From a virus: 62,754 nucleotides of DNA. The stretch is taken from IMG/VR virus record IMGVR_UViG_3300020472_000024, positions 1-62,754 of that record; one strand, 5' to 3'. Below the pieces are notes generated by a model. The model was not told the origin of the DNA and made no database searches. It was given only the letters and a program-made list of their open reading frames with translations. This document shows, piece by piece, positions 456 to 59,648 of the stretch. The position numbers were made by a program, and so were the translations under genes. The first letter of the stretch is position 1; every line of letters begins with the position of its first letter.

Positions 456-1293
456 GCGCCATATAGTCAATATATTGGATATTTTTCTCTCTTTTCCAAT
501 CGTCTGGTATTGTACTAATTGGGTCAGAACCATCGCCTCCGTGTGGATTTACCTTGTAGAAAGTGATGTTTGGGTGCTCTCCAAATAATTGTAACCATTG
601 TCTAGTCCAATTGATACTAGGTGTCTTGTGTGCCTCACTTAAACCATAATGTTTAGTGTCTTTGTATAGGTTGTTTAGATTGTCATTAAAACTCTCTAAA
701 TCGTGTCCTAATAAAAATACTTCTTCTGGATTATTATCTTGTATTGCAAAATAACCTGAAGTAGGACCTGCTGCCCAACCTCTATCTCTTGTCTTACCCT
801 CATTGCTAATCATATAGTCGTGTACTGATCTAACTTTATCGCCTTCTGTAATCCAACTAACATTGATAGATGTATGATTGACTTCTTTCTTTTCTCTTGT
901 CTTATTCTTTTTTAATATCTCTACTACACCTGCTAAATTAGAACCGTGCATTACAAACTCTTTACAATCACCTCGTTCATTAGAAGAAATTACATTTTCT
1001 TTTTTAATTAGTTCATAATCTTGGTCTGAATAGTTTTGTCCTGCATATAATAATTGTTCGTACATTTCTCCAGGCATTGTACTCCAATCTCTAAACACAC
1101 ACTTGTTATCTTGTGCATAACCAGAATTATATATCTCGTGCATAATACCCATATCAACTGCTGTGATAACATCTGGTTTAAAATCTCTATACAAGGCATT
1201 ACACCCATATATTTTACCGTGTGGTCTTAATGATTCTAAATTAAAATCTTTTCTACTCTCACCATTACCTATAACAAATACTCTACCAGCCAT
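436..1293 (-). CDS. Conserved marine T4-like phage protein, Rossmann-like, possibly glycan-related
   Basis: 285 aa. The N-terminus reads VFVIGNGESRKDFNLESL and later RDFKPDVITAVD, a glycine-rich strand-turn-helix followed by a short acidic strand end, as in DUF115/sialyltransferase-like Rossmann proteins. The second half has GWAAGPTSGYFAIQ and EEVFLLGHDLE, which in such proteins line a substrate pocket. No signal peptide or membrane segment. The start overlaps the end of the upstream gene by 11 nt, indicating translational coupling. Catalytic function is not established; placement in a sugar-modifying superfamily is an inference from the GNG motif. Confidence 0.5.
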   Translation of the reverse strand: MAGRVFVIGNGESRKDFNLESLRPHGKIYGCNALYRDFKPDVITAVDMGIMHEIYNSGYAQDNKCVFRDWSTMPGEMYEQLLYAGQNYSDQDYELIKKENVISSNERGDCKEFVMHGSNLAGVVEILKKNKTREKKEVNHTSINVSWITEGDKVRSVHDYMISNEGKTRDRGWAAGPTSGYFAIQDNNPEEVFLLGHDLESFNDNLNNLYKDTKHYGLSEAHKTPSINWTRQWLQLFGEHPNITFYKVNPHGGDGSDPISTIPDDWKREKNIQYIDYMALDNMLK

Positions 1294-2107
1294 ATTTCTT
1301 CCAAAACTCTCTCATCTTATTATAATTTCTGTTAAAACCTTCTGTTAATAATTGTCTTGTCATATTACTTTCTTTTTCAAAATTTGGATCATCATTTTTA
1401 TCTATATTTACATAATCAGATTCATCTCCAGGTATTAATATGAATTGTGCAATCGGTGTACCTGCCTTGATTATTGTTTCTCCTTCTGTACTATGCCAAA
1501 ACATTGGTACGGTACCTATGGTAGCGTGACCTAATCTTGGTTCAAGTACACCAGAACAAGTTGTAAATCTAAAATCATCTTGGTAAAAAGGATGAAGTTG
1601 TAATAGTTTATAACCTTTAGGTATTCTTGCCACCCAAGGTAAATTAAATTTCATTAATCGTTTTAATGTATCTTTTGGCCAATTCTCAAAGAAAGGTGCC
1701 ATTGATTGTTCTTGGTGTGATGTAATTAAAGGCATATTATTCATTGATTGGGATGGATTTATAAATCTAAAATTTTCACCTTTAACTTCTATCTTAACGT
1801 CTTGGTGTAATCTCATTATCCAACCTGTGTTATGCCACATTTGTAGTGCTGGACATTTTGATGTATGTCTATTTTCTTCTTGTTTAAATTTTTGATGTTC
1901 AGGTACATCATACATTTCCTGACCGTGTCTATATTGTTTTGTTATTGAACCACCTTCTTTGAAATCTCTTGCTGCCTTTTTCACCCAACTAGGTTTTAAT
2001 GAAGACGCTTTTACTATTGGCATTGTTTTATCAATGCCTGGTATTGTGGCAATAAATTCTACTTTAGGTTTTGATTTATCTCCCCCACCTGCTAATTTAT
2101 CAAACAT
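1283..2107 (-). CDS. Conserved hypothetical protein (possibly DUF6065-like)
   Basis: 274 aa, soluble. An N-terminal basic region leads into KCPALQMWHNTGWIMRLHQDV and a core of short strands (FWHSTEGETIIKAGTPIAQFILIP). I associate this arrangement with a family common in T4-like cyanophages (possibly DUF6065), but I recall no biochemical role. The start ATG overlaps the gp59 stop (ATGTTTGA), so the two genes are co-translated. The cupin-like strand pattern near the C-terminus could bind a small ligand, but no metal-binding histidine triad is evident. Confidence 0.5.
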   Translation of the reverse strand: MFDKLAGGGDKSKPKVEFIATIPGIDKTMPIVKASSLKPSWVKKAARDFKEGGSITKQYRHGQEMYDVPEHQKFKQEENRHTSKCPALQMWHNTGWIMRLHQDVKIEVKGENFRFINPSQSMNNMPLITSHQEQSMAPFFENWPKDTLKRLMKFNLPWVARIPKGYKLLQLHPFYQDDFRFTTCSGVLEPRLGHATIGTVPMFWHSTEGETIIKAGTPIAQFILIPGDESDYVNIDKNDDPNFEKESNMTRQLLTEGFNRNYNKMREFWKKYGW

Positions 2108-2708
2108 TTTTAATTACCTCTTTCATTATTAATTTACATTCTGTCAAATTATAGTTTATAAAAGGTTTCAACTTGGTAACCTTATGTGCGATTTTAGGCC
2201 AGACAACCCTTTCTTTAATTTGTTTATTCCAATTTTTGATAAACGATAAGACTTGGTCAAGCACAACGAAGGTTTGGAAAGACGTTCTCCTCTGGATAAG
2301 TAAACGTAAAAGTCGTGGATGTTGTCCGCTATTGCAAATGAAACCATCATCAAAAGAAATACGCTTACTGCTAAAGTCATTAAGAATATTAACAAAGTCG
2401 TTTCTAAAATGAAATTTAAAATTGTCTTTAACTTTTTTATAATTGAGGTATATCTCTCGTCCATCATTTTCTAATAAGTTACCAATCCAGTTCTTGTCTT
2501 TGTCAATAAAATTTGCAACAAAGAAATCAAGTATTTCATCTTGTTTATATTTTGTGCTAAGTTTGTGAAAAAAGTATCTGTCATTTCTTTTTGTAAATGT
2601 ATCTAGTTTTATATTTACCTTACCATCATAGTCAAAATAATTATAGTTGGTAGTAAAATGTAATTTAACTGCCATATAGACTCTAAAAACATCAAACCCT
2701 CCATACAT
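2100..2708 (-). CDS. 59: gp59, loader of the gp41 replicative helicase
   Basis: 202 aa from the chosen start MYGGFDVFRVYMAV, close to T4 gp59 (217 aa). The segment KRNDRYFFHKLSTKYK, then FFVANFIDKDKNWIG and a KFHFRNDFVNI stretch, follow the T4 order (KRRDKYFFQKLSEKYK, ISNL..NQDAWIG, KFKFEEDIRNI, from memory). The protein brings gp41 helicase onto gp32-coated forks. The ATG overlaps the upstream stop (TAATG) and an AAGGA site lies 9 nt before it; an ATG-like start three codons earlier lacks such spacing. gp33, gp59 and gp32 appear in the same relative order as in T4, with extra genes inserted. Confidence 0.85.
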   Translation of the reverse strand: MYGGFDVFRVYMAVKLHFTTNYNYFDYDGKVNIKLDTFTKRNDRYFFHKLSTKYKQDEILDFFVANFIDKDKNWIGNLLENDGREIYLNYKKVKDNFKFHFRNDFVNILNDFSSKRISFDDGFICNSGQHPRLLRLLIQRRTSFQTFVVLDQVLSFIKNWNKQIKERVVWPKIAHKVTKLKPFINYNLTECKLIMKEVIKNV

Positions 2709-2950
2709 TAGAACCAATCCTTATTAGGCGGTATCTCAACGTCTGTTTCATTATACTTATCATACCATAAACTAAGCAAAGCAATAACAACACCTAATAT
2801 TATAAGACCCCATAAACCTGTTGACTTTTCTACAAATAATAAATGATATAATACCTCAACACCATTCATACCTTCTAATGGATTTGCTTTTTCAGCATTT
2901 TGTGTGAGTTTGTCCATAAACTCGTCCATTGCTTTTAACTCATTAGACAT
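2708..2950 (-). CDS. Small single-pass membrane protein
   Basis: 80 aa. An acidic/basic N-terminal half (ELKAMDEFMDKL) precedes one clear membrane segment (GLWGLIILGVVIALLSLWY, about residues 45-64) and a short acidic tail ending KDWF. No lipobox. It sits between a 51-aa ORF and gp59 with short overlaps on both sides, so it belongs to the gp33-gp59 operon. I do not recognise the family. Confidence 0.6.
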   Translation of the reverse strand: MSNELKAMDEFMDKLTQNAEKANPLEGMNGVEVLYHLLFVEKSTGLWGLIILGVVIALLSLWYDKYNETDVEIPPNKDWF

Positions 2951-3090
2951 TTTAATTCTTCTAACGCTTTCATTAAAGGATGTTTCATAACTTTTTTGTT
3001 ATTCATTTTTGGTATTGCCTTTAGAAATTTAGGATATTGTATATTTAATTTTATAATAACTTCTTCAAGTAATTTATCTTTTCTGGTCAT
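2935..3090 (-). CDS. 51-aa basic hypothetical protein downstream of gp33
   Basis: Short ORF starting MTRKDKLLEEVIIKLNIQYP, rich in lysine and leucine, predicted mostly helical. Its ATG overlaps the gp33 stop (ATGA) and its end overlaps the next start by 16 nt, the compact coupling used throughout this genome. T4 places the small DNA-binding protein DsbA next to gp33; this ORF is shorter and I cannot show homology. Confidence 0.5.
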   Translation of the reverse strand: MTRKDKLLEEVIIKLNIQYPKFLKAIPKMNNKKVMKHPLMKALEELKCLMS

Positions 3091-3302
3091 ACAGGTAATG
3101 TACCACCTTTTTTCTCTTTTAACATTTTAAGATTGATTGCTTCGTGTTTGATTTTCTCTTTCAATGATTTGTTAACCATTGAGTTGATTGTGCCTACATC
3201 AATGTCGTGTGTCTTACAATAGTCTATTATGGCGTCCATATATGGCATTTTATTCTCTTTGACCATTGCCTCTATTTTTAAACTAAATTCTTTACTATTC
3301 AT
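3087..3302 (-). CDS. 33: gp33-like late-transcription co-activator
   Basis: 71 aa from the chosen start MNSKEFSLKIEAMV. The core KMPYMDAIIDYCKTHDID followed by SLKEKIKHEAINLKML lines up with T4 gp33 (GMSYLEATTAFLEENSI..IIEKIQSEAIDENLL, from memory). gp33 bridges host RNA polymerase beta flap and the sliding clamp to activate late promoters; TATAAATA boxes are present in this window. A longer frame exists from a TTG at 3332, but that start lies inside the -35/-10 region of a strong promoter, so the ATG at 3302, 6 nt after the -10, is preferred. Confidence 0.8.
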   Translation of the reverse strand: MNSKEFSLKIEAMVKENKMPYMDAIIDYCKTHDIDVGTINSMVNKSLKEKIKHEAINLKMLKEKKGGTLPV

Positions 3303-3402: not shown

Positions 3403-3929
3403 ATATTCTCTAATACTTTTTCTGGTGATGATACCGTATAAGGGTCATCATCATCACTATAATTATTAATACCTGGTTCTTCAAACCATTTTTCTACTAT
3501 GCCATTTTTAACTACAGCAGCATATCTCCACGATCTCATACCGAAACCTTGAGCAGGTTTATTTACTAACATACCCATTGATCTAGTAAACGTACCACAA
3601 CCATCTGGTATCATTTTTACATTCTTAATATCTAAATCTCTTGCCCAGGCATTCATTACAAATGCGTCATTTACTGATATACAATATACATCATCATAAC
3701 CTTGTTCTTTAAATTTTGAATATAACTCATCATACATAGGTAATTGTTGTCCTGAACAGGTAGGTGTAAATGCACCTGGTAAACTAAACAACACAACTTT
3801 TCTATCTTTAAATAGATCATCTGTTGTTATATCTTTCCAAGTACCACCAATAAAAGTACAACCACCTTTTTCATCGGTGTCGCCTTCTCTAAATTTGAAA
3901 GTGTGATTTATTAATTTACATTGGTTCAT
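3399..3929 (-). CDS. Peroxiredoxin (Prx5/thiol-specific antioxidant family)
   Basis: 176 aa, normal length for Prx5. The active-site loop VVLFSLPGAFTPTCSGQQLP carries the peroxidatic cysteine with the conserved P, T and T. The family also shows the SVNDAFVMNAWARD helix start and a GIVEKWFEEPG C-terminal strand. It reduces peroxides using thiols and should act in the cytoplasm (no signal peptide). Further cysteines exist, but a resolving partner cannot be assigned. It is the first gene after the phage tmRNA, with a TGAGGA ribosome site before the ATG. It probably protects the infected cell, or late virion assembly, from oxidative damage; a glutaredoxin gene lies 10 kb upstream in the same genome. 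Confidence 0.85.
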   Translation of the reverse strand: MNQCKLINHTFKFREGDTDEKGGCTFIGGTWKDITTDDLFKDRKVVLFSLPGAFTPTCSGQQLPMYDELYSKFKEQGYDDVYCISVNDAFVMNAWARDLDIKNVKMIPDGCGTFTRSMGMLVNKPAQGFGMRSWRYAAVVKNGIVEKWFEEPGINNYSDDDDPYTVSSPEKVLENI

Positions 3930-3949
3930 TATATATTCCTCATTATTAA

Positions 3950-4185
3950 GTGCCTGATTCTGTTGCGAGGTTCAGGCAAACCCCAAGCAGTTATTATGCT
4001 GCTAAAGCGTAACTTTCGTTAGCATTTATAATTTGACATTACGGTGTCAGCGATTTAACTCCAATAAGTTTTAGTAGCAGTCGAATCTAACTCACCCCCT
4101 CAAAGCACACATCAATGTGTTTTAAATTGGTGGAGGTGGTGGGTATTGCACCCACGTCCTCACTAGTTATTGTCTTATCTTCAAC
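3950..4185 (-). ncRNA. ssrA: tmRNA (ssrA), circularly permuted two-piece type
   Basis: Transcribed on the minus strand, acceptor piece first. That piece (about 4185 to 4128) ends with a T-arm (GTGGG/CCCAC, 7-nt loop TGCAATA) and an acceptor strand CACCTCC followed by encoded ACCA. A 28-nt linker with an ACACAT/ATGTGT hairpin (4100-4127) follows. The coding piece begins GGGGGTG at 4099, pairing 7 bp with the acceptor strand, and carries GATTCGAC typical of tmRNA. The tag frame (4023-3991) encodes ANESYALAA plus two stops, close to E. coli ANDENYALAA. A P2 helix TTATTG (4062-4067) with CAATAA (4167-4172) joins the pieces, and an H-type pseudoknot follows the tag. tmRNA rescues stalled ribosomes and tags proteins for proteolysis. 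The outer ends are approximate. Confidence 0.93.
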
Positions 4186-4195
4186 ATTAAATTCT

Positions 4196-4534
4196 TTAAT
4201 TCTGTAAGGTCTTATTCAAAACCACATCAAAGGTCCTAAACAAAATGCAAGTGTTATTAGGATTGTCAGGTGTTTGTACTGAAGCAAATGATTGAGTTGT
4301 ATCGTTCATCCAATAAACTATCATATAAACAATTTCTCCATCTGGTTTTCCACCTGCTCTACCATAACTTACATTAAGAGGCACAAACTTATTGTCTGTT
4401 GCCCACCTATTAATTTCATCATTCGTGGAACATATTGCTGGCAATTGTTCCCACCAAAAGTTGTATTGTTTCTGCGTTTCTGCATAAGCAATACTTGTAA
4501 ATAATAATGTTAAAATTAGTGTTAATATTTTCAT
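4196..4534 (-). CDS. Secreted/periplasmic hypothetical protein
   Basis: 112 aa from MKILTLILTLLFTSIAYA, a clean type I signal peptide with an AYA cleavage site. The mature part has cysteines in AICSTNDEINRWA and NNTCILFRTFD that could form a disulfide. The ATG at 4534 has an AAGGA site 5 nt upstream; a TTG 24 nt earlier is unlikely. It ends just before the tmRNA acceptor piece and has a TATAAATA box about 94 nt upstream, suggesting a late transcript containing this gene, tmRNA and peroxiredoxin. I do not recognise the family. Confidence 0.65.
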   Translation of the reverse strand: MKILTLILTLLFTSIAYAETQKQYNFWWEQLPAICSTNDEINRWATDNKFVPLNVSYGRAGGKPDGEIVYMIVYWMNDTTQSFASVQTPDNPNNTCILFRTFDVVLNKTLQN

Positions 4535-6927: not shown

Positions 6928-7075
6928 TTTTTTTCTCCTTTAATATTCTACCGTAATTCGGCCATCCAAATTTGTCGGGTGACTCATCTGTGTATCTCCA
7001 ACGAATAACTCCTGTATCAGGATTTCTTTCGTAAATTTTTTCTCTTTTAAATTTTATTTTTTGTTTAATCGCCAT
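6917..7075 (-). CDS. 52-aa basic hypothetical protein
   Basis: Starts MAIKQKIKFKREKIYERNP and ends GRILKEKKNAK; a Trp-rich middle (VIRWRYTDE) suggests a small folded strand unit. Overlaps the next start by 11 nt and ends in TGA within that gene's opening, as with other real neighbours here. Not recognised. Confidence 0.55.
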   Translation of the reverse strand: MAIKQKIKFKREKIYERNPDTGVIRWRYTDESPDKFGWPNYGRILKEKKNAK

Positions 7076-7077
7076 TA

Positions 7078-7236
7078 TTAATCCTCAACATTATTATGAT
7101 ATAGACCGTCCCTTAATATTTTTTCTTCATCAAAGGTAAATGGTCTAATCATATTTTTACCTTTGTCTTTTCTCTCTTTAGTTTGTCTTTTACTTTCTTC
7201 GTAACTCAATTGTTCCATATCATCCATTTGTGCCAT
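7078..7236 (-). CDS. 52-aa hypothetical protein
   Basis: Begins MAQMDDMEQLSYEESKRQ and ends DGLYHNNVED. The ATG at 7236 has an AAGGGA site with normal spacing; an upstream in-frame start would overlap the previous gene further. Charged and likely helical; function unknown. Confidence 0.5.
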   Translation of the reverse strand: MAQMDDMEQLSYEESKRQTKERKDKGKNMIRPFTFDEEKILRDGLYHNNVED

Positions 7237-7801
7237 TATGTATCCCTTCTTTGTACCAGTCAGGCATAACTGCACCTGGTTTTTCCCATTTAGCAAATCG
7301 TATCTTCTCTAGTATATAGTATTTTCTATAAGACCCTACAACGTCACCTGGTATCTTACAATGATCTGGCATTGCTGGTGTAGCGTCTGTACCTATCACA
7401 TCAACTCTAGCATTTACTGGTGGTGTTTTTAGTAATTCAGCAAGTTTAGTTATTGATACGTGGTCTTTATCTTTTTGCCATCTTAATTTGTATTCTTCAT
7501 TCAAAGCAAGAAAATGTTTGTACAACCATATGTAATTGTAAGCAGATTTTAAAACCCATTGTGTACTAGGGTGACCTAACCAACCTGCCTTGTATATGAT
7601 TGCTTCTTCGTTAGAGTTCTCTAGTCGCCATCTTCTTATCTTACGACCATTCTTTGTGAAGTCTGTATATTCAATGCCGTCAAGTACACGTTTTGCTGTA
7701 CATAGCATTTGAGCAGACTCTAATATCATTTTGATAATGTGTTTATCACACATCATCTTAGCAGCAGTTTCTGGATTTTTATCTACGTAAAATATATTCA
7801 T
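7220..7801 (-). CDS. Conserved marine phage protein of unknown function
   Basis: 193 aa. A strongly patterned N-terminus MNIFYVDKNPETAAKMMCDK followed by KHIIKMILESAQMLCTAKR, with further HPSTQWVLKSAYNY and CKIPGDVVGSYRKYY. Histidines and tryptophans are clustered as in an enzyme. I recognise it as a recurrent protein in T4-like cyanophages but know no activity. It overlaps the upstream start by one base and the downstream start by 17. Confidence 0.55.
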   Translation of the reverse strand: MNIFYVDKNPETAAKMMCDKHIIKMILESAQMLCTAKRVLDGIEYTDFTKNGRKIRRWRLENSNEEAIIYKAGWLGHPSTQWVLKSAYNYIWLYKHFLALNEEYKLRWQKDKDHVSITKLAELLKTPPVNARVDVIGTDATPAMPDHCKIPGDVVGSYRKYYILEKIRFAKWEKPGAVMPDWYKEGIHNGTNG

Positions 7802-7986
7802 TAATGTATTGCTTTTCTAAAATAATTCATCTTATCATACTTCTCACACAATGCTTTGAAAGTCTTATACCAAAAGTCTTTACTCCAATTCGTTTCAGCA
7901 TTCTTACACTTGTTCTCAGCATTTTTAATTCTTCTCATCTGTAAATCAGGAGAGATAATTCTATCAATATCAATATTTGTAATCAT
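7801..7986 (-). CDS. 61-aa early hypothetical protein, leaderless start
   Basis: Starts MITNIDIDRIISPDLQMRR, charged and Trp/Tyr-rich toward the end (WSKDFWYKTFKALCEKYDK). It is the first gene after promoter P4, whose -10 ends 6 nt before the ATG, so its mRNA should lack a 5' leader. Likely an early host-takeover peptide by position only. Confidence 0.6.
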   Translation of the reverse strand: MITNIDIDRIISPDLQMRRIKNAENKCKNAETNWSKDFWYKTFKALCEKYDKMNYFRKAIH

Positions 7987-7992
7987 AGTTAT

Positions 7993-8021
7993 AATATATC
8001 ACTTTTTTTCACCTTTGTCAA
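7993..8021 (-). promoter_or_regulatory. Sigma70-like early promoter P4, leaderless geometry
   Basis: GCTTGACA with -35 at 8016-8021, 17 nt spacer, TATATT at 7993-7998, 6 nt to the ATG at 7986. It overlaps the 3' end of the lipoprotein gene. Confidence 0.85.
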
Positions 8022-8298
8022 GCACAGGATGTTGTTTGTATTCAACTTCTTGGCATATTGCCTCTAATCCGTCCTTCAAAACCCTACGAATCTTGCAATC
8101 ATAACCTGTAATTTTAGATAAAAACTGGTCGTCTGTTGTTTTTTTATCGTTAGCAGCGAGAGATAGATCAACACCACCTTTAATATAGGTAATTGTCTTA
8201 TATGATTCGTATGAGGAAGCAGTTGTACCTACAACGGCAGGTAAAGTACCACACGCATTTAGTAATAGTAAACTACTTATTAGTATCAGTATTCGCAT
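7999..8298 (-). CDS. Small lipoprotein
   Basis: 99 aa. N-terminus MRILILISSLLLLNACGTLP is a lipoprotein signal with lipobox LNAC, cleaved before Cys16. The mature part has two more cysteines and ends basic. It follows the 348-aa membrane protein with a 26-nt overlap. Probably attached to the inner or outer membrane of the infected cell; function unknown. Confidence 0.65.
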   Translation of the reverse strand: MRILILISSLLLLNACGTLPAVVGTTASSYESYKTITYIKGGVDLSLAANDKKTTDDQFLSKITGYDCKIRRVLKDGLEAICQEVEYKQHPVLDKGEKK

Positions 8299-9319
8299 TC
8301 CACTCCATTATCTGATCTAGTTTAAGTCTTATCTCATCAGGATCCAAACCTAAATTCTTCAGTTCTTCTGTTCCCATTTTGTTAAAAAAATCTTCGTAAT
8401 CTCTATTAGTTAATTCTCTTTTACCTAACTTGTTAAAAAAATCTTTATAAATTTTTTGCTTATCTCGGTAGTTTTTCGCTCTAATTTTTGCGTTAGCAGC
8501 TTCCGTCTGCCAGTCTTTTTGTTTCTTCGCAAGTTTCTTTTCTTCTTCAATTTTATTCTTTTTCGCATTTCGCTTTTCTTTCCATTGTCTTAATGATATG
8601 TTAGCAGCAATTAATAATAATACTGCTAATGGATCAAATACAAATATCAATATTAATATTATAATTCTAACTGCTGAGTCAAAATGATCTTTTGCATTTT
8701 CTCCATATATCAATTCAGCAACATATTTAAGTGGTCCTACATCTGCCTCTATCTTTAATTGTTCTATTTCAATATTACTTTTTGCATTGGTCAATTTAGC
8801 AATCTCGTCCATTGCATTTTTAATTTCTGTATTTAAAAAATCTCGTTCTTCTTTTTGTTTCTTTCGTTCTTTTAGACCTCTACTGACATATTCTTTTGCA
8901 ATATAAACATCTAACGCCTTGTCTAATCTATCAAGTGTATTTTCTGCTCTATCTATAATAAGATTTTGTTGATTTATTTGTTTATCTATTAATGCTATCT
9001 GTACTGCATTATTACCTGTTGGTCTAACTTGGTCTAGGTGTGCCTTTGATAGGAAACCAAAGATACCCATTGATGTAATGAATACTAATACAATAATTGC
9101 TGTAAATAGATATGCTTTTAATGCCCTAGGTATTCCTTCTCGCCAGTTATGATACAACCAACTGGCAGCAACTAACTTACCTACTTCTAATGCTGAACCC
9201 ATTGCAATAATAGGTACGGCAGCACCAGCAAATAAAGTTGCTAGTCCTAGTATAGAATATCCTGCCGCTATTAAAGATATAGCAATCGCTGATATAAATG
9301 TTATTAATGTTAAAAACAT
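8273..9319 (-). CDS. Membrane protein with long coiled coils, conserved in marine T4-like phages
   Basis: 348 aa. Two to three N-terminal membrane segments (about residues 1-50 and 68-92), a periplasmic or cytoplasmic coiled coil (about 110-205), another membrane segment (IIILILIFVFDPLAVLLLIA, about 220-240) and a Lys/Glu-rich C-terminal coil. The motif GSALEVGKLVAASWLYHNWR is distinctive. It may act as an envelope-anchored scaffold. Its ATG lies 4 nt after the glucosaminidase stop, suggesting joint function at the envelope. Confidence 0.6.
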   Translation of the reverse strand: MFLTLITFISAIAISLIAAGYSILGLATLFAGAAVPIIAMGSALEVGKLVAASWLYHNWREGIPRALKAYLFTAIIVLVFITSMGIFGFLSKAHLDQVRPTGNNAVQIALIDKQINQQNLIIDRAENTLDRLDKALDVYIAKEYVSRGLKERKKQKEERDFLNTEIKNAMDEIAKLTNAKSNIEIEQLKIEADVGPLKYVAELIYGENAKDHFDSAVRIIILILIFVFDPLAVLLLIAANISLRQWKEKRNAKKNKIEEEKKLAKKQKDWQTEAANAKIRAKNYRDKQKIYKDFFNKLGKRELTNRDYEDFFNKMGTEELKNLGLDPDEIRLKLDQIMEWNANTDTNK

Positions 9320-34157: not shown

Positions 34158-35798
34158 TTATTTCTCTATCGTGTAAATGGTTACCTTGTTTGATTTACCC
34201 TTTACGGTTACCTCGTCTAATTTTTTGAAATTGTATAATGTAGATATATCTTTGTATGTGTCTTCTCCGACAACTAGTGTGGCGTCATAGTTTTTAGAAA
34301 CTCCCTCTAATCTACTTGCCAAGTTCACAGAATCACCGATAACAGAATAATCAAATCTTTGTTGACTACCCATATTACCTACAATACACTTTCCTGTATT
34401 GATTCCTATACCTATATTTATGACATTGTTATCTCCAAACCCATTCATATTATTTAAATATTTTAATTTATCTATCATTTCAAGTGCCGAAGTTATTGCT
34501 AACTCTTTGTGTTTCGGTGTGTCAATAGGTGCATTCCAAAATGCCATTATACAATCGCCCATATACTTATCAATTGTACCACTATTTCTCATAATAATAT
34601 CTGTCATAGGTGTTAAAAATCTATTAATAACTTTTGTTAATTCTGCAGGATTACTTTTATATTTTTCTGACAATGGTGTAAACCCTCTTATATCACAGAA
34701 TAAAAATGTTAGTTCTTTTGTTTCACCACCTAGTTTTAACAAGTCAGGATTCTGTTGTAGTTTCTTAACCATTTTAGGTTCAAGGTAATGTTCAAATTGT
34801 TTTTTAATTTGTAGTTTTAATCTATTCTCTCTTGCAAAGTTATTATATATTAAATGTGTCCATACAATAGTCATTGCAATTGCAATATAAGACCAGTCTG
34901 TAATTATCATTTTACTATGCCATAGATAAACAGAACCTATAGCAATATCAGCATATGCACCAAATAGTAATACTGCTGACCATAGTAAACCTACTCTAGG
35001 TATAATCAATACAAATGCAAGTAGACCTAATATAAATCCTATCCATTCTAATGTAGGCAACCAATCAGGTCTTTGAATAAACTTACCTGACAATAAAGTT
35101 TCAGTTGACATTGCCATTATATCGTGTGGATTTTTTAAACCGTTAGGTGTTAATACAAATGTTGAACCTGAAAATGTAGCACCTATGAATACAATTTTAC
35201 CTTTTACAGATGACCAATCTTTATCTGCGTGATCTATTCTAGGTATTTGATGTCTAAAATCTATCCATATATTATCTTGTTTAGGTATTTTAAATTTGAT
35301 AATCTTCAGTATTGTTTCAGGTACAGAATTTTCTAAAGGTAATTTTCTAATAGTACCATCTACATCTACTGGAACAAGAACATCACCTACACCTAATACT
35401 TTTCTTTTTATACTTTGTAGATTTTTTGCGTCTTTAGTTTCTGTTAAGATAACAGGATACTTTGAGATCATTTTCAAAAACATTTCATCACCACCTAATC
35501 TATCTTTATGTACAAAAACTACATTTAAGAAAACTAAAGCGGCACCATTTTGATATGCTTTAATAACAGCACGACCTAATTGATCTCTCTTCCACGGCCA
35601 TTGACCATATTTGTTTAGTGAATTATCTGATATGTCTATTAAGACTAGACTTTTTGATTTATAATTATTGCCAAACTTTTGATATAAGTCAAAGGTTTTT
35701 AATTGTAGGGTCTGTAAAGGTATTGGATTATATACTTTTAACGCCAATAATATAATCACACTTACCACTACTGCCCACGTGGAAGTAAACTTGTTCAT
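34158..35798 (-). CDS. CHASE2-domain class III adenylate/guanylate cyclase
   Basis: 546 aa. Membrane segment at about residues 7-23, extracytoplasmic CHASE2 sensor (about 30-245; SLVLIDISDNSLNKYGQWPW is typical), three membrane segments (about 250-325), then a class III cyclase domain. Metal Asps are present in LTFLFCDIRGFTPLSEKY and KYMGDCIMAF; GKCIVGNMGSQQRFDYSVIG and SVNLASRLEG include the transition-state Asn and Arg. It appears catalytically intact and should make cAMP (or cGMP) in response to a periplasmic signal. It sits downstream of the curli-like genes. A signalling cyclase in a T4-like phage is unusual. Confidence 0.9.
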   Translation of the reverse strand: MNKFTSTWAVVVSVIILLALKVYNPIPLQTLQLKTFDLYQKFGNNYKSKSLVLIDISDNSLNKYGQWPWKRDQLGRAVIKAYQNGAALVFLNVVFVHKDRLGGDEMFLKMISKYPVILTETKDAKNLQSIKRKVLGVGDVLVPVDVDGTIRKLPLENSVPETILKIIKFKIPKQDNIWIDFRHQIPRIDHADKDWSSVKGKIVFIGATFSGSTFVLTPNGLKNPHDIMAMSTETLLSGKFIQRPDWLPTLEWIGFILGLLAFVLIIPRVGLLWSAVLLFGAYADIAIGSVYLWHSKMIITDWSYIAIAMTIVWTHLIYNNFARENRLKLQIKKQFEHYLEPKMVKKLQQNPDLLKLGGETKELTFLFCDIRGFTPLSEKYKSNPAELTKVINRFLTPMTDIIMRNSGTIDKYMGDCIMAFWNAPIDTPKHKELAITSALEMIDKLKYLNNMNGFGDNNVINIGIGINTGKCIVGNMGSQQRFDYSVIGDSVNLASRLEGVSKNYDATLVVGEDTYKDISTLYNFKKLDEVTVKGKSNKVTIYTIEK

Positions 35799-37958: not shown

Positions 37959-39047
37959 TTAACAACCTGAATTAGTTAACTGAACGGTTGTGTCTGCTGT
38001 TTGATCGTTTCTATTAAATGAATATGTGCAAGTATCAGAACCATCTTGGTCAACTAATAATGTATAATCATAAATTGAATCACCATTGACCGTTAGATGA
38101 GCAGTATTTGAACCGTTTAATTGTATTAACTCTACAATTGCACCACTTGTGTACAAGTAAACTTGAGCATTATTATTTCCACCATTTCCATAATATCTTA
38201 ATGTGTTACTATTACCACTTGTAACCGTTTTCATATAATTATTATCACCATACTGAACCATTCTTACGTGTGATCCAACTGCGTCTGGATGAACATCTAA
38301 AATATTTGAATCACCTATGACATCGTGGACTTGATAATTGTCAGCACCGTGGCTGGACATATGTACTTGATTTGAAGAACCAATTATATAAACATCTATT
38401 GTAGCACCTTCATCACCAGTTGTATCTGCAAATTGACCGTGACCTTCTACATTAGGACCAATCATCACATTTGCTTTACTAGCACCTACCATACCACTTG
38501 AATTAGTATTACCATAAAACTCTACATCATTTGAATTACCTGACATAAGAACATATAAGAAGTGTGAATCACCTCTAACATATGCCCAAAAATCATTTGA
38601 GTCTCCTCTTATATCTAAATCTATATGAGTATCTTGTATGTCATCACTTGTATGACCACTAATATCTACTATGTTTGAAGAACCTGTAACATCTATATCG
38701 TAATAATGACCATCAGCGTCTGTATCGCCTAAATCTAATCTTAATTTATTTGAATTACCTGTAGCAGTATAATCAAAGGTCATATTAGAACCTTTAAATT
38801 TCATATCGCCAGAGTCATCTGTTTCGTTTGAGTTACCTATTTGTTTAACTATGATAGTTAAATTGGGACCATCAATTACGAAAGGTGCTGATGTAGATAT
38901 ACCAAACTTATTTGTAGCACCGTCTTGTTTTATATAGACGGATCCTAATTTGTTTTGATTGTCTTGTTGGATATAAACGGAGTTACCAGCGAAAGTATTA
39001 CTTAATGTCGCTAGAAGAATCACTATCGCTATCATTATCTGTTTCAT
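37959..39047 (-). CDS. Curlin-repeat (CsgA/B-like) secreted protein
   Basis: 362 aa from MKQIMIAIVILLATLSNTFA, a signal peptide. N-terminal curlin-type units (YIQQDNQNKLGS, YIKQDGATNKFG), then about ten spaced GNSN/GSSN/GDSN turns with beta-strand flanks, as in curlin Q-x-G-x-x-N repeats; C-terminal cysteines are at STC-type positions (DTCTYSFN, NSGC). Such proteins polymerise into extracellular amyloid. The ATG at 39047 has AGGAGG 9 nt upstream. Partner secretion genes csgG and csgF lie immediately upstream. Much larger than E. coli CsgA (151 aa). Confidence 0.8.
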   Translation of the reverse strand: MKQIMIAIVILLATLSNTFAGNSVYIQQDNQNKLGSVYIKQDGATNKFGISTSAPFVIDGPNLTIIVKQIGNSNETDDSGDMKFKGSNMTFDYTATGNSNKLRLDLGDTDADGHYYDIDVTGSSNIVDISGHTSDDIQDTHIDLDIRGDSNDFWAYVRGDSHFLYVLMSGNSNDVEFYGNTNSSGMVGASKANVMIGPNVEGHGQFADTTGDEGATIDVYIIGSSNQVHMSSHGADNYQVHDVIGDSNILDVHPDAVGSHVRMVQYGDNNYMKTVTSGNSNTLRYYGNGGNNNAQVYLYTSGAIVELIQLNGSNTAHLTVNGDSIYDYTLLVDQDGSDTCTYSFNRNDQTADTTVQLTNSGC

Positions 39048-40008
39048 CAGCATTCTCCTCCTGTTTTAATTCTTCTTTTAATTTTGCTTCTTCTTTAATT
39101 TGTTGTTTACGTTCTTCTTTTGCTCTTTCTTTTTCATCAATATAATCTTGGTAAGTCTTTTCTACTTTTTCTTCACCAATATCAACCGTAATATCAGTAT
39201 CAACATAGTCTTTTATTTCTGGTACTTCTACTTCTTTGATAGGTTCAAATTCCCATAGACCTTTGTCAACACCTAAATTGATAACATCAACTACACCTTT
39301 TTCAATTGCTTTTCTAACTGCAAGTGTAACTGGTTCGTTTCTAGCATAACCAGCTTCTACTTCAACTAACATTGTATCAGTATCAAAGTATTTAAATATG
39401 TCTGATCCTGTTGATGTAGAAAAAATAGTTTTCTCAACCGTTGTTGATAGTACAACTTCACCAGTCTGTACATTAATAACTCTTAATATAATAGTTACTA
39501 TGTCTTGTCTAAATTGTTTGTTTGCCTGAATACCTAATACTCTAGCACCAAAACCACCTGATTTAATATCTGAATCATAACCTACAATACCACCTGTGAT
39601 ATATGCACCAGCAAATAATAGTGGTGGTAAAGGTTCTGCACCCTCACCATTTACTTGTTGTCTTGTTGATCTAATTAATTTTCTTTCTTGTAATAAACTT
39701 GGAAGACTTGTTCTCTCTACAACTCTAAACCATTCACCATTACCTGCGTCTGCAAGTGCTTTAATTAATAATTGATATGATCCTTGAGTTACTGCCGTAC
39801 TCATTGACGCAAAAGAACCACCTGGTTTCTTTTGTCCTGTCATATCTATGAAATCGTAAACTGCAATTATAATAGGTTCACCTTTAGGTGATTCTATATT
39901 TGATAAATCTTTATAAGCAACCGTTTGTGTTCTTACATCAAACTTTGCTTTTCCAGCACAACCTACTAACAAAAAAGAAAGTAGGAATATTGATATGTAT
40001 TTTAACAT
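38998..40008 (-). CDS. csgG: CsgG-like curli secretion lipoprotein
   Basis: 336 aa. Signal MLKYISIFLLSFLLVGC with lipobox LVGC. The CsgG core follows: IIIAVYDFIDMTGQKK, GEWFRVVERTSLPSLLQERK, AGAYITGGIVGYDSDIKSGG, GARVLGIQANKQFRQDIVTI and INVQTGEVVLSTTVEKTI. CsgG forms the nonameric outer-membrane pore for curlin export. A Lys/Glu-rich C-terminal extension (about residues 275-336) is additional to E. coli CsgG (277 aa). One-base overlap with csgF. Confidence 0.93.
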   Translation of the reverse strand: MLKYISIFLLSFLLVGCAGKAKFDVRTQTVAYKDLSNIESPKGEPIIIAVYDFIDMTGQKKPGGSFASMSTAVTQGSYQLLIKALADAGNGEWFRVVERTSLPSLLQERKLIRSTRQQVNGEGAEPLPPLLFAGAYITGGIVGYDSDIKSGGFGARVLGIQANKQFRQDIVTIILRVINVQTGEVVLSTTVEKTIFSTSTGSDIFKYFDTDTMLVEVEAGYARNEPVTLAVRKAIEKGVVDVINLGVDKGLWEFEPIKEVEVPEIKDYVDTDITVDIGEEKVEKTYQDYIDEKERAKEERKQQIKEEAKLKEELKQEENADETDNDSDSDSSSDIK

Positions 40009-40475
40009 TACGTATTGTCCTCTTTAGGCATTGTAAATGTCGTTACGGTTCCGTCTGTTTCTGTAACGGTTACGGTTACATTACCTGTACCTGAAGGTGT
40101 TGCCCAAGTAACTACTTCACCACCTACTGGTGATGTAAATGTACCAGAGTCTTGTTGTAGACCATCAGTACCAAATACGTTATCTGTAATTTGTTTTGCA
40201 AGGGCAGTATAAAATCTTGCCTCTATATTTGACTTAAACTTAGCAATTGCTGTGTTTTTTGCTTCTGTTTCTGCTTTTTCTTTAGCAGCTTTTTCTGCTG
40301 CCTTGATAGCGTCTTTTCTAGTCTTCTCTATATTCTCAATTGTTAGATAGTGTGATGATTTTCCGTTACCAGAAAACGATGGACTACCAAACTTAAAGGT
40401 AAGTTCACTACCTTTTACTGATTGGATTGATAAAACTACTAAAATTGTTGCTAATGCTAGTGATAATTTTCCCAT
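40008..40475 (-). CDS. csgF: CsgF-like curli assembly factor
   Basis: 155 aa. Signal MGKLSLALATILVVLSIQSV, then ELTFKFGSPSFSGN, equivalent to TMTFQFRNPNFGGN at the mature N-terminus of CsgF, the part that plugs the CsgG pore. A helical Lys/Ala segment and a C-terminal beta region (GNVTVTVTETDGTVTTF) follow. Its late promoter TATAAATA lies 21 nt upstream of the ATG. It should lock curlin nucleation to the CsgG channel. Confidence 0.85.
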   Translation of the reverse strand: MGKLSLALATILVVLSIQSVKGSELTFKFGSPSFSGNGKSSHYLTIENIEKTRKDAIKAAEKAAKEKAETEAKNTAIAKFKSNIEARFYTALAKQITDNVFGTDGLQQDSGTFTSPVGGEVVTWATPSGTGNVTVTVTETDGTVTTFTMPKEDNT

Positions 40476-40687: not shown

Positions 40688-41152
40688 TTATTCGTATACT
40701 TTTTTTCTCTCGTATGCCTGCTCGTGTCTACCTGTAATCTCTAGTATTTCCCACTCGCCATTTTCTAATACTCTTACTTTTGCATTTACTTTATCACAAG
40801 TCATATTGTAAACACCGTCTTTAGTTTCACTTTCTTTATATTTTCTTTCTGCCTCTCTTTTATTTTTAAGGCAGTCCATTAAGTTTTCACTTGCAACGTG
40901 GTCAACTAGTTTTCTTTGTCCATCTTCTCCTAGTTCAAAGATACATACTGCAAATACAACACCGTCTTCAGGTGTAGATTCTGAAGTCTTGTGTTCTTCT
41001 TTCATAAAAGTTTTATGTGTATGTTTCTTTTCAATAGGACATACTTGGTGACCGTCATCGCCACAACCTGTGCAATCTGCAAATACAATACTAACACCAC
41101 CTATTAATATAATAAGTGAAAGTAATCCTGCTAATAGTAATCTTCCTTGCAT
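40688..41152 (-). CDS. Secreted Cys-rich protein
   Basis: 154 aa. Signal ending GGVSIVFA, then DCTGCGDDGHQVCPIEKK with four clustered cysteines, and ENLMDCLKNKREAERKYKES followed by a C-x-x-V-x-A element. Those latter features are shared with the next gene downstream, indicating duplication. Likely periplasmic with disulfides. One-base overlap with the downstream gene. Confidence 0.6.
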   Translation of the reverse strand: MQGRLLLAGLLSLIILIGGVSIVFADCTGCGDDGHQVCPIEKKHTHKTFMKEEHKTSESTPEDGVVFAVCIFELGEDGQRKLVDHVASENLMDCLKNKREAERKYKESETKDGVYNMTCDKVNAKVRVLENGEWEILEITGRHEQAYERKKVYE

Positions 41153-57947: not shown

Positions 57948-58207
57948 GCACGAGTCCATAGGAATCTTGGTATACCACCACTATTTTCCCATACACGGTT
58001 CTTATTTTGAAAGTCTGCTAGTTTCTGTGCGTCTTCTTCAAAGAAGTATTCCGAAACAGCATTTTTAGTAGGGTGTTCTATAACTTGCCAGACAAATTTA
58101 CGACCTCTTTTTTTCATCTTAACTTTATAAGATAATTTAGGATACTCTTTATCTGATCTAGGTTTTCTATCACCTCTATGGAATCTCACTTTTTGTTTTT
58201 TAGGCAT
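57944..58207 (-). CDS. Basic small conserved protein
   Basis: 87 aa, starts MPKKQKVRFHRGDRKPRSDK; middle RGRKFVWQVIEHPTKNAVSE and end GGIPRFLWTRA. Very basic start suggests nucleic-acid binding. Its last bases overlap P10. Function unknown. Confidence 0.55.
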   Translation of the reverse strand: MPKKQKVRFHRGDRKPRSDKEYPKLSYKVKMKKRGRKFVWQVIEHPTKNAVSEYFFEEDAQKLADFQNKNRVWENSGGIPRFLWTRA

Positions 58208-59648
58208 TGTATATTTCCTTTATTGCTTGTTTGTGAGTAATTAAATCCCAACTAGCAATTTCAGCATTTCGTTGAGATTCAAATAAGTCTAATTTTGATA
58301 TTATTTTTTCATCTAATTTTAAATATTTTTCTTTTATAATATCTCTATTAATCATATCTAGTCCTTCTAATAAGACTACAAAGTGTTGTGGTTGAAATAA
58401 AACGTATCCACTATCATTAACTAAATCATCAACAGCAGGTAATCTAGTTTTCCATAAATGTAATTTCTCTGCTAAACTATCAGGTATATCCATTTCTTTT
58501 ATGTCTTGCCAAAATTTAGAATCTTTTCTAGGAGTAATATAATGTAATGCTACAAAATCTCTAATGTTATTATTAATACTTGTAATACTTTTATTATACC
58601 ATTTAATAGTATGTTCATTATAGTTTAATATATTTTGACTTAAAACATATGCTGATTGAATAGAAGAACCAATTGAGGATGCCTCTAAAGGTTCTATAAA
58701 GTTAGCACTTAAACCAACTGCAACACAATTTTTAATCCAAGTATCTTTTAAAGCACCTGGATCAAACTTAATATGTTTCTTAACATCTATTTCATATCCT
58801 AATTCTTTTTCAACTTCTTCTTTTGCTTGCTCTGGTGTTATATAACTACCATCAAAAATATATCCATTACCGTGTCTACCTTGTACAGGTATTTTAAATC
58901 TCCAACCATACTTCATTGCTTTTGCTAGTGTCCACATATTATAATTGTCTTCGTCACCAGTTGGAAATACAATAGCGGAATTCATTTTTAAATACTTGTC
59001 ATATGATTCCCACTCAGCACCTAGTTTATTGATTAACAATTTTTTAAATCCTGTACAATCAATATAGAAATCTGCATTGTAAGTATTGTCTTTACTTAAA
59101 ACTTCTTTTATACTTCCGTCTTCTTGTAATTTTACATCTGCTATTTCGTCATCTGTAATAGTAATGTTTCTTTCAATACACTTTTCTTGCAACCAAGTAT
59201 TTAATTTATGAGTATCAAAATGAAATTGAGCAGTTACTATTGATTTTAAAAGTTTTGCAGGGTACATACTATTTTTAATATGTTTATCAGCAGGACAATT
59301 TCCATCATTAATTAACTTATGATAATATATAAAGTCACCTGAATTTTTAATTGCTTGCATTTCGTATGATACGGTATTAAGATAATCTGGAGTTCCCCAA
59401 TCTTTAAAATTTATACCAAATTTAAAAGTAGCACCACAATGTTTTATTAATGACTCTTTCTTCTCACCAATATATGCTAAAAAATCTGACCAATGTTCAG
59501 TAGAACCTTCACCTACACCTATAATTCCTACCTTATCTGATTTTACAATATCAATATTAAGTTGTGGATATTTTGTTTTTAATATTAATGCTGTAACTAA
59601 ACCTGCTGTGCCAGCGCCTACAACTAATATTGAATCAACTTTATTCAT
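58200..59648 (-). CDS. Flavin-dependent tryptophan-halogenase-like enzyme
   Basis: 482 aa. FAD site ILVVGAGTAGLVTALILKTK; VGIIGVGEGSTEHWSDFLAY is the family GVGE block; ATFKFGINFKDWG includes the catalytic Lys position. MKYGWRFKIPVQGRHGNGYI stands where W-x-W-x-IP lies, with Phe for the second Trp. SANFIEPLEASSIGSSIQSA is the conserved FIEPLEAS motif. It should form HOX and halogenate an aromatic substrate; a cyanophage enzyme (VirX1) of this family is known. Host substrate unknown. Confidence 0.85.
   Translation of the reverse strand: MNKVDSILVVGAGTAGLVTALILKTKYPQLNIDIVKSDKVGIIGVGEGSTEHWSDFLAYIGEKKESLIKHCGATFKFGINFKDWGTPDYLNTVSYEMQAIKNSGDFIYYHKLINDGNCPADKHIKNSMYPAKLLKSIVTAQFHFDTHKLNTWLQEKCIERNITITDDEIADVKLQEDGSIKEVLSKDNTYNADFYIDCTGFKKLLINKLGAEWESYDKYLKMNSAIVFPTGDEDNYNMWTLAKAMKYGWRFKIPVQGRHGNGYIFDGSYITPEQAKEEVEKELGYEIDVKKHIKFDPGALKDTWIKNCVAVGLSANFIEPLEASSIGSSIQSAYVLSQNILNYNEHTIKWYNKSITSINNNIRDFVALHYITPRKDSKFWQDIKEMDIPDSLAEKLHLWKTRLPAVDDLVNDSGYVLFQPQHFVVLLEGLDMINRDIIKEKYLKLDEKIISKLDLFESQRNAEIASWDLITHKQAIKEIYNA

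Follow-up and report, generated by a model that had tools for sequence, protein, structure and literature searches.

A predicted inner-membrane adenylate cyclase in the curli secretion cassette of a T4-like phage

Phage-encoded CsgF and CsgG proteins were first reported by Zaragoza-Solas et al. (PMC7029224), and a viral module of pelagiphages that combines curli genes with genes for a FecR protein and an adenylate cyclase was described in 2022 (PMC9599517). In the latter study, the viral module was found to have alphaproteobacterial affinity and to have spread between phage families, and the FecR and cyclase genes were treated as additions to curli operons. A role as a pore or in lysis timing has also been proposed, and no clumping was seen with the methylophage Melnitz (PMC9004378). 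The cassette has been published for the Pelagibacter phage HTVC008M, for Melnitz, and for many metagenomic pelagiphages, and the HTVC008M ortholog of the cyclase (AGE60353.1) is annotated as "adenylate/guanylyl cyclase". Targeted searching of the literature on phage-encoded adenylate cyclases returned nothing relevant, and the same was true of searches on cAMP or Crp in Pelagibacter. Since the cassette is already present in HTVC008M, Melnitz and the published module, the cyclase described here is a further member of that module, and not the novelty that the original prediction took it to be.

The stretch of DNA analyzed here, referred to as the window, corresponds to a virus record of 62.75 kb that is classed as linear and is probably a fragment. 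It encodes a T4-type RNase H, NrdA, a primase and a DnaB-like helicase, in agreement with the earlier assignment to a T4-like phage, and the closest NrdA homolog was identified in the Pelagibacter phage Mosig (83% identity). The neighboring genes in Mosig were arranged in the same order, with identities of 64% for DUF7201, 71% for the primase, 83% for NrdA, and 84% for NrdB. None of the profiles for CsgF, CsgG, FecR, and the cyclase matched the region fetched from Mosig, which indicates that the curli cassette is variable among related phages, and Mosig was not among the matches when the phage collection was searched with the cyclase. The window phage is a marine, T4-like phage that probably infects SAR11 bacteria. 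The window also contains a permuted tmRNA gene of the alphaproteobacterial type (positions 3903-4245, minus strand; Rfam RF04321 and RF01849) with the tag ANESYALAA, and a gene for a tryptophan-halogenase-like protein (positions 58200-59648, minus strand; phrog_2928, 7e-101). No glutamine riboswitch reached the threshold in the window, unlike in the published Melnitz genome.

The cyclase gene is the last gene in a cassette with the order CsgF-CsgG-curlin-like-FecR-cyclase, in which all partners are located upstream on the same strand (Table 1), and it is followed downstream by the genes for DUF7201, the primase and NrdA. The adjacent CsgF and CsgG genes, accompanied by curlin-like and FecR genes, identify this as a viral curli (type VIII secretion) cassette, and the same cassette is present in HTVC008M and Melnitz. 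The original prediction had considered the cyclase in isolation and overlooked the cassette to which the gene belongs. There was no direct Pfam match to the FecR-like protein in the window, which was instead assigned via viral homologs; its BLAST relative, the Melnitz FecR protein, passes the Pfam FecR profile. It was also noted that the FecR-like protein has a very long, acidic C-terminal tail rich in Trp, Tyr, Asp and Glu with short repeats (WDEVNWDEVDWD). The curlin-like candidate had no Pfam match. A histidine kinase located upstream is a feature of the curli cassettes in podoviruses (PMC9599517), and no match to such a kinase was obtained in the seven open reading frames scanned between positions 40688 and 44204.

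Table 1. Positions of the cyclase gene, its domains and motifs, and the neighboring cassette genes in the window.
Feature	Position	Strand	Evidence
CHASE2-class III nucleotidyl cyclase, 546 aa	34158..35798	-	ATG start; ORF, Pfam, AlphaFold2, Foldseek
Cyclase N-terminal transmembrane helix, residues 2-23	35730..35795	-	AlphaFold2 helix; hydropathy peak 4-22
Cyclase CHASE2 match, residues 14-262	35013..35759	-	Pfam PF05226, 2e-27; periplasmic sensor part about 30-240
Cyclase three transmembrane helices, residues about 246-268, 271-296, 303-325	34824..35063	-	AlphaFold2; last continues into signaling helix to 335
Class III catalytic domain, residues 359-545	34164..34724	-	Pfam PF00211, 8e-25; Foldseek CyaB/Cya2
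First metal Asp D369 (FCDIRGF)	34692..34694	-	83/83 viral, 72/72 bacterial homologs
Purine-specifying Lys K411 to second metal Asp D415 (KYMGD)	34554..34568	-	Viral alignment; Cya2 comparison
Transition-state N492 to R496 (NLASR)	34311..34325	-	N492 82/83, R496 83/83 viral homologs
FecR-like protein, 716 aa, N-terminal signal-like segment	35807..37957	-	phrog_37870, 3e-18; Melnitz FecR BLAST, 28%
Curlin-like fiber subunit candidate, 364 aa, SGNSN-type repeats	37959..39053	-	Position; Melnitz curlin-repeat BLAST, 29%; DNA repeats
CsgG outer-membrane curli pore	38998..40008	-	Pfam PF03783, 1e-50
CsgF curli chaperone	40008..40475	-	Pfam PF10614, 5e-13

The association of the cyclase with the curli genes was examined in viral loci sampled by CsgG rather than by the cyclase. 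A cyclase was present in 23 of 28 such loci, and the remaining 5 end short of the place where it would be expected. In one group of loci (L015, L017-L027, L087-L095 and others), the cyclase gene was located at the opposite end of the cassette in a divergent orientation beside csgF. The cyclase thus stays with the cassette after relocation, which means that the association survives rearrangement.

The predicted cyclase has the layout of a CHASE2 sensor cyclase, with an N-terminal transmembrane helix, a CHASE2 domain, three transmembrane helices, and an output domain. The scores for CHASE2 and Guanylate_cyc were both far above the curated Pfam cut-offs, and the latter (PF00211, residues 360-545) reached 87.9 bits against a cut-off of 21.9, as expected for a class III fold. 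In the AlphaFold2 model, which was inferred from a 25-sequence alignment and has a mean pLDDT of 86, helices at residues 2-23, 246-268, 271-296, and 303-335 surround the CHASE2 fold, and the cyclase domain spans residues 359-544. At the threshold used, a hydropathy plot revealed all of the membrane segments except the fourth. The closest solved structures in Foldseek searches were the catalytic domains of CyaB (3r5g; TM score of 0.87 to the target, rmsd 1.9) and Cya2 (2w01), along with a phytochrome-cyclase fusion, and the closest viral model was a full-length match to a protein from an uncultured Caudovirales (TM score of 0.93). The CHASE2 domain and the three membrane segments had been described as complete, which is borne out by the end-to-end Pfam match and the AlphaFold2 helices; however, the CHASE2 domain in the window clade is about 62 residues shorter than that of HTVC008M, with gaps of about 30 amino acids after residues 121-123, 5 after residue 158, and 27 after residue 175.

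The active-site residues in the window cyclase are D369, K411, D415, S485, N492, R496, and K533. The two metal-binding Asp residues and the transition-state Asn and Arg (D369, D415, N492 and R496) recognized in the original prediction are thus present in a confirmed class III fold, and no catalytic residue of the window cyclase was found to be substituted. D369, K411, D415, and R496 were invariant in all 83 viral proteins and N492 was conserved in 82 of them, the exception being Melnitz. Melnitz excepted, every catalytic residue is kept in the approximately 85 viral copies. All of D369, K411, D415, N492, and R496 were also kept in the 72 bacterial relatives, although the patterns used to fetch these sequences span K411 and D415. 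The same caveat applies to the first viral set, in which the conservation of the two residues could be circular because it was fetched partly with the motif KYMGDCIM. The test was therefore repeated on the loci seeded on CsgG, in which the motifs were kept in 21 of 21 loci with a full catalytic domain; this set overlaps the motif-fetched set, with several contigs in both. The Melnitz cyclase (positions 6932-8983 of locus L003) is otherwise full-length, but contains a Ser in place of the transition-state Asn and an Asp at the position of S485. Its activity is possibly altered or lost, as judged by these substitutions, and strict catalytic competence may therefore not be needed in every phage.

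With regard to substrate, the combination of K411 and S485 resembles the Lys/Thr pair in CyaB and conforms to the adenylate type, in which a Lys is paired with an Asp, Thr or Ser. The guanylyl cyclase Cya2 contains a Glu at the position of K411, and a guanylate cyclase is disfavored since the window cyclase has a Lys where Cya2 has the Glu. The specificity residues thus resemble those of CyaB rather than Cya2 and favor ATP over GTP as the predicted substrate. The dN/dS values, estimated with the Nei-Gojobori method from comparisons with relatives that were at least 60% identical, were about 0.06-0.29 for the whole protein and 0.05-0.34 for the catalytic domain, with some of the synonymous distances saturated. 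These estimates argue that the cyclase gene is maintained by purifying selection on the protein. A broken gene is ruled out by the open frame, the intact motifs, and the dN/dS values.

The best cellular matches to the window cyclase were mainly alphaproteobacterial. In a phylogeny that included 72 cellular sequences, limited to the nearest matches, the 85 viral tips formed a single clade with a support of 1.0, and the neighbors of this clade were mainly alphaproteobacterial, in agreement with PMC9599517. None of 80 cellular cyclase loci, with flanks of at most about 9 kb in either direction, contained a match to CsgG or CsgF. Of 69 cellular CHASE2 cyclases with enough upstream sequence, 21 were preceded directly by a FecR-like open reading frame on the same strand, with gaps of -117 to +98 nucleotides between stop-to-stop frames, and the two upstream frames that were checked both pass the Pfam FecR profile. 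Loci with a FecR-CHASE2 cyclase pair and without CsgG include L119, L126, L152, L181, L188, L190, and L191. The arrangement suggests that FecR and the CHASE2 cyclase were already paired in cellular genomes and were later combined with the curli genes. The bacterial pair looks like an uncharacterized envelope-sensing module, and since it occurs without CsgG, the phage pair looks like a transplant of such a module. The FecR gene upstream of bacterial CHASE2 cyclases is the new point here, whereas the phage curli-cyclase cassette itself was already known.

The presumed host order was reached via similarity to the tmRNA of the window, and the identity of the host is thereby inferred. Genomes in this order are 0.7-1.5 Mb in size, with a G+C content of 30-32% in two sampled stretches, and 45 of 49 genomes encode a rhodopsin; a small-genome, rhodopsin-bearing order fits the Pelagibacterales. 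No class III cyclase was identified in 97 presumed Pelagibacterales genomes, for which completeness was not reported. A match to the cNMP-binding domain (PF00027) was found in 6 of the 97 genomes, all with scores of 27-29 bits, just over the cut-off, as compared with 212 of 289 genomes in the wider class. Five of the six matches fell within an open frame of 870 aa and the sixth within one of 372 aa, and the one frame that was read (positions 919-3264 of locus L204, plus strand) appears to combine cNMP-like domains with a subsequent acyltransferase/GDSL-like part, unlike a Crp-type regulator. The domain was likewise not found in HTVC008M, Melnitz, or three phage contigs of 171-251 kb. With cNMP-binding domains nearly absent from the presumed hosts and none in these phages, the downstream cAMP step is left without a candidate; GAF domains, which were present in 12 of 49 genomes of the presumed host order, are possible alternative receptors. 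The earlier proposal that the phage floods host signaling or saturates receptors fits poorly with these counts, according to which there is little such cAMP signaling to flood. The survey also follows up the suggestion to look for a host cAMP receptor, with an answer that applies to the inferred host order: a few marginal matches, and in the one that was read nothing Crp-like.

Taken together, we consider it probable (roughly 60%) that the cyclase is an adenylate cyclase of the inner membrane and forms the sensor and output end of a phage-borne curli cassette. In the mechanism we envisage, the phage CsgG and CsgF proteins would place curlin-like fibers on the infected cell, and the FecR-like protein together with the periplasmic CHASE2 domain would sense secretion or the state of the envelope. 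The signal would pass via the transmembrane helices to the catalytic domain, which would act as a homodimer and convert ATP into cAMP, and this may in turn regulate curli secretion or convey feedback from it. Only gene order points to a partnership between FecR and the cyclase. Since the presumed SAR11-type host is without apparent Crp-type receptors, either the target would be a protein of the host or the phage that has gone unrecognized, or the signal would be local. A more specific version, which we put forward tentatively, is that the phage equips cells of an order devoid of both class III cyclases and Crp-type receptors with a self-contained second-messenger circuit, in which FecR and CHASE2 sense curli secretion or the envelope, cAMP is the output, and an unrecognized non-Crp receptor of phage or host reads it.

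Reprogramming of the host via the classical cAMP-Crp pathway, through metabolism or a csgD-like control of curli, has been suggested in different forms by the original prediction and in PMC9599517, where the control of csgD by cAMP-Crp in E. coli is discussed. The intact ATP-type residues of the cyclase agree with such a role, but the near-absence of PF00027 from the presumed hosts, the apparently non-Crp nature of the frame that was read, and the absence of CsgD from these phages according to published work (PMC9599517) make it unlikely. We regard it as similarly unlikely, if anything slightly more so, that the cyclase is a passenger in a cassette transferred as a whole, in which the curli genes or the pore are selected and the cyclase contributes little. 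The variability of the cassette among related phages, with no match in the Mosig region, and the substituted Asn in Melnitz would be expected of a passenger, whereas the low dN/dS values, the conservation of catalytic residues outside of Melnitz, and the retention of the cyclase after relocation would not.

An even less probable role, which we consider very improbable, is in antiviral defense, either by depleting or mimicking the nucleotide signals of CBASS and Pycsar systems or as a Pycsar-type cyclase. The catalytic domain matches PADLOC models for PycC (best 3e-26), as both cyclases belong to class III, but these matches do not extend beyond the catalytic domain and the linker, the neighbors scanned did not include a PycTM- or PycTIR-like or other cNMP-binding effector, and the constant partners of the cyclase are curli genes. 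A Pycsar cyclase was rejected on these grounds, and the support for a link to CBASS and Pycsar comes down to the shared catalytic fold. The reading as the sensor and output end of the curli cassette bears on a broader matter, in that much less work has been devoted to phage genes for the synthesis of cyclic-nucleotide signals than to those for their destruction. Provided that it is active, the cyclase would be a messenger-making enzyme of widespread ocean phages, with ties to a secretion system absent from their hosts, and the missing usual receptor sharpens the question of what, if anything, reads the cAMP signal. In bacteria, the pairing of FecR and CHASE2 cyclase genes likewise hints at an envelope-sensing module that has gone unrecognized.

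The catalytic fold and the metal-binding and transition-state residues are shared with CyaB from P. aeruginosa (3r5g), CyaC from Arthrospira (1wc1), and Cya2 from Synechocystis (2w01), from which the window cyclase differs by S485, a Thr in CyaB, and K411, a Glu in the guanylyl cyclase Cya2. The bacterial CHASE2-class III cyclases of Alphaproteobacteria, such as Thalassospira and Bradyrhizobium, resemble it in architecture, active site, and often an upstream FecR-like gene, but have a longer CHASE2 domain and C-terminus and no CsgG or CsgF match nearby. The cyclase of the Methylophilales phage Melnitz (QZI95054.1) is encoded in the same cassette and has the same architecture, but differs by the substitutions described above and a C-terminal extension. 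The gene set and domain architecture are also those of HTVC008M and the pelagiphage module, with the CsgF-CsgG-curlin-FecR-cyclase order in the window clade, and the cyclase is 34% identical to that of HTVC008M over 94% of the protein. The FecR-like protein, with its Trp/Asp-rich tail, is about twice as long as that of HTVC008M (716 versus 368 amino acids), no further gene separates FecR from the cyclase, in contrast to HTVC008M, and the cassette adjoins DUF7201-primase-NrdA. By these sequence comparisons, the window cassette forms a clade of its own, characterized by a shortened CHASE2 domain and a long FecR-like protein.
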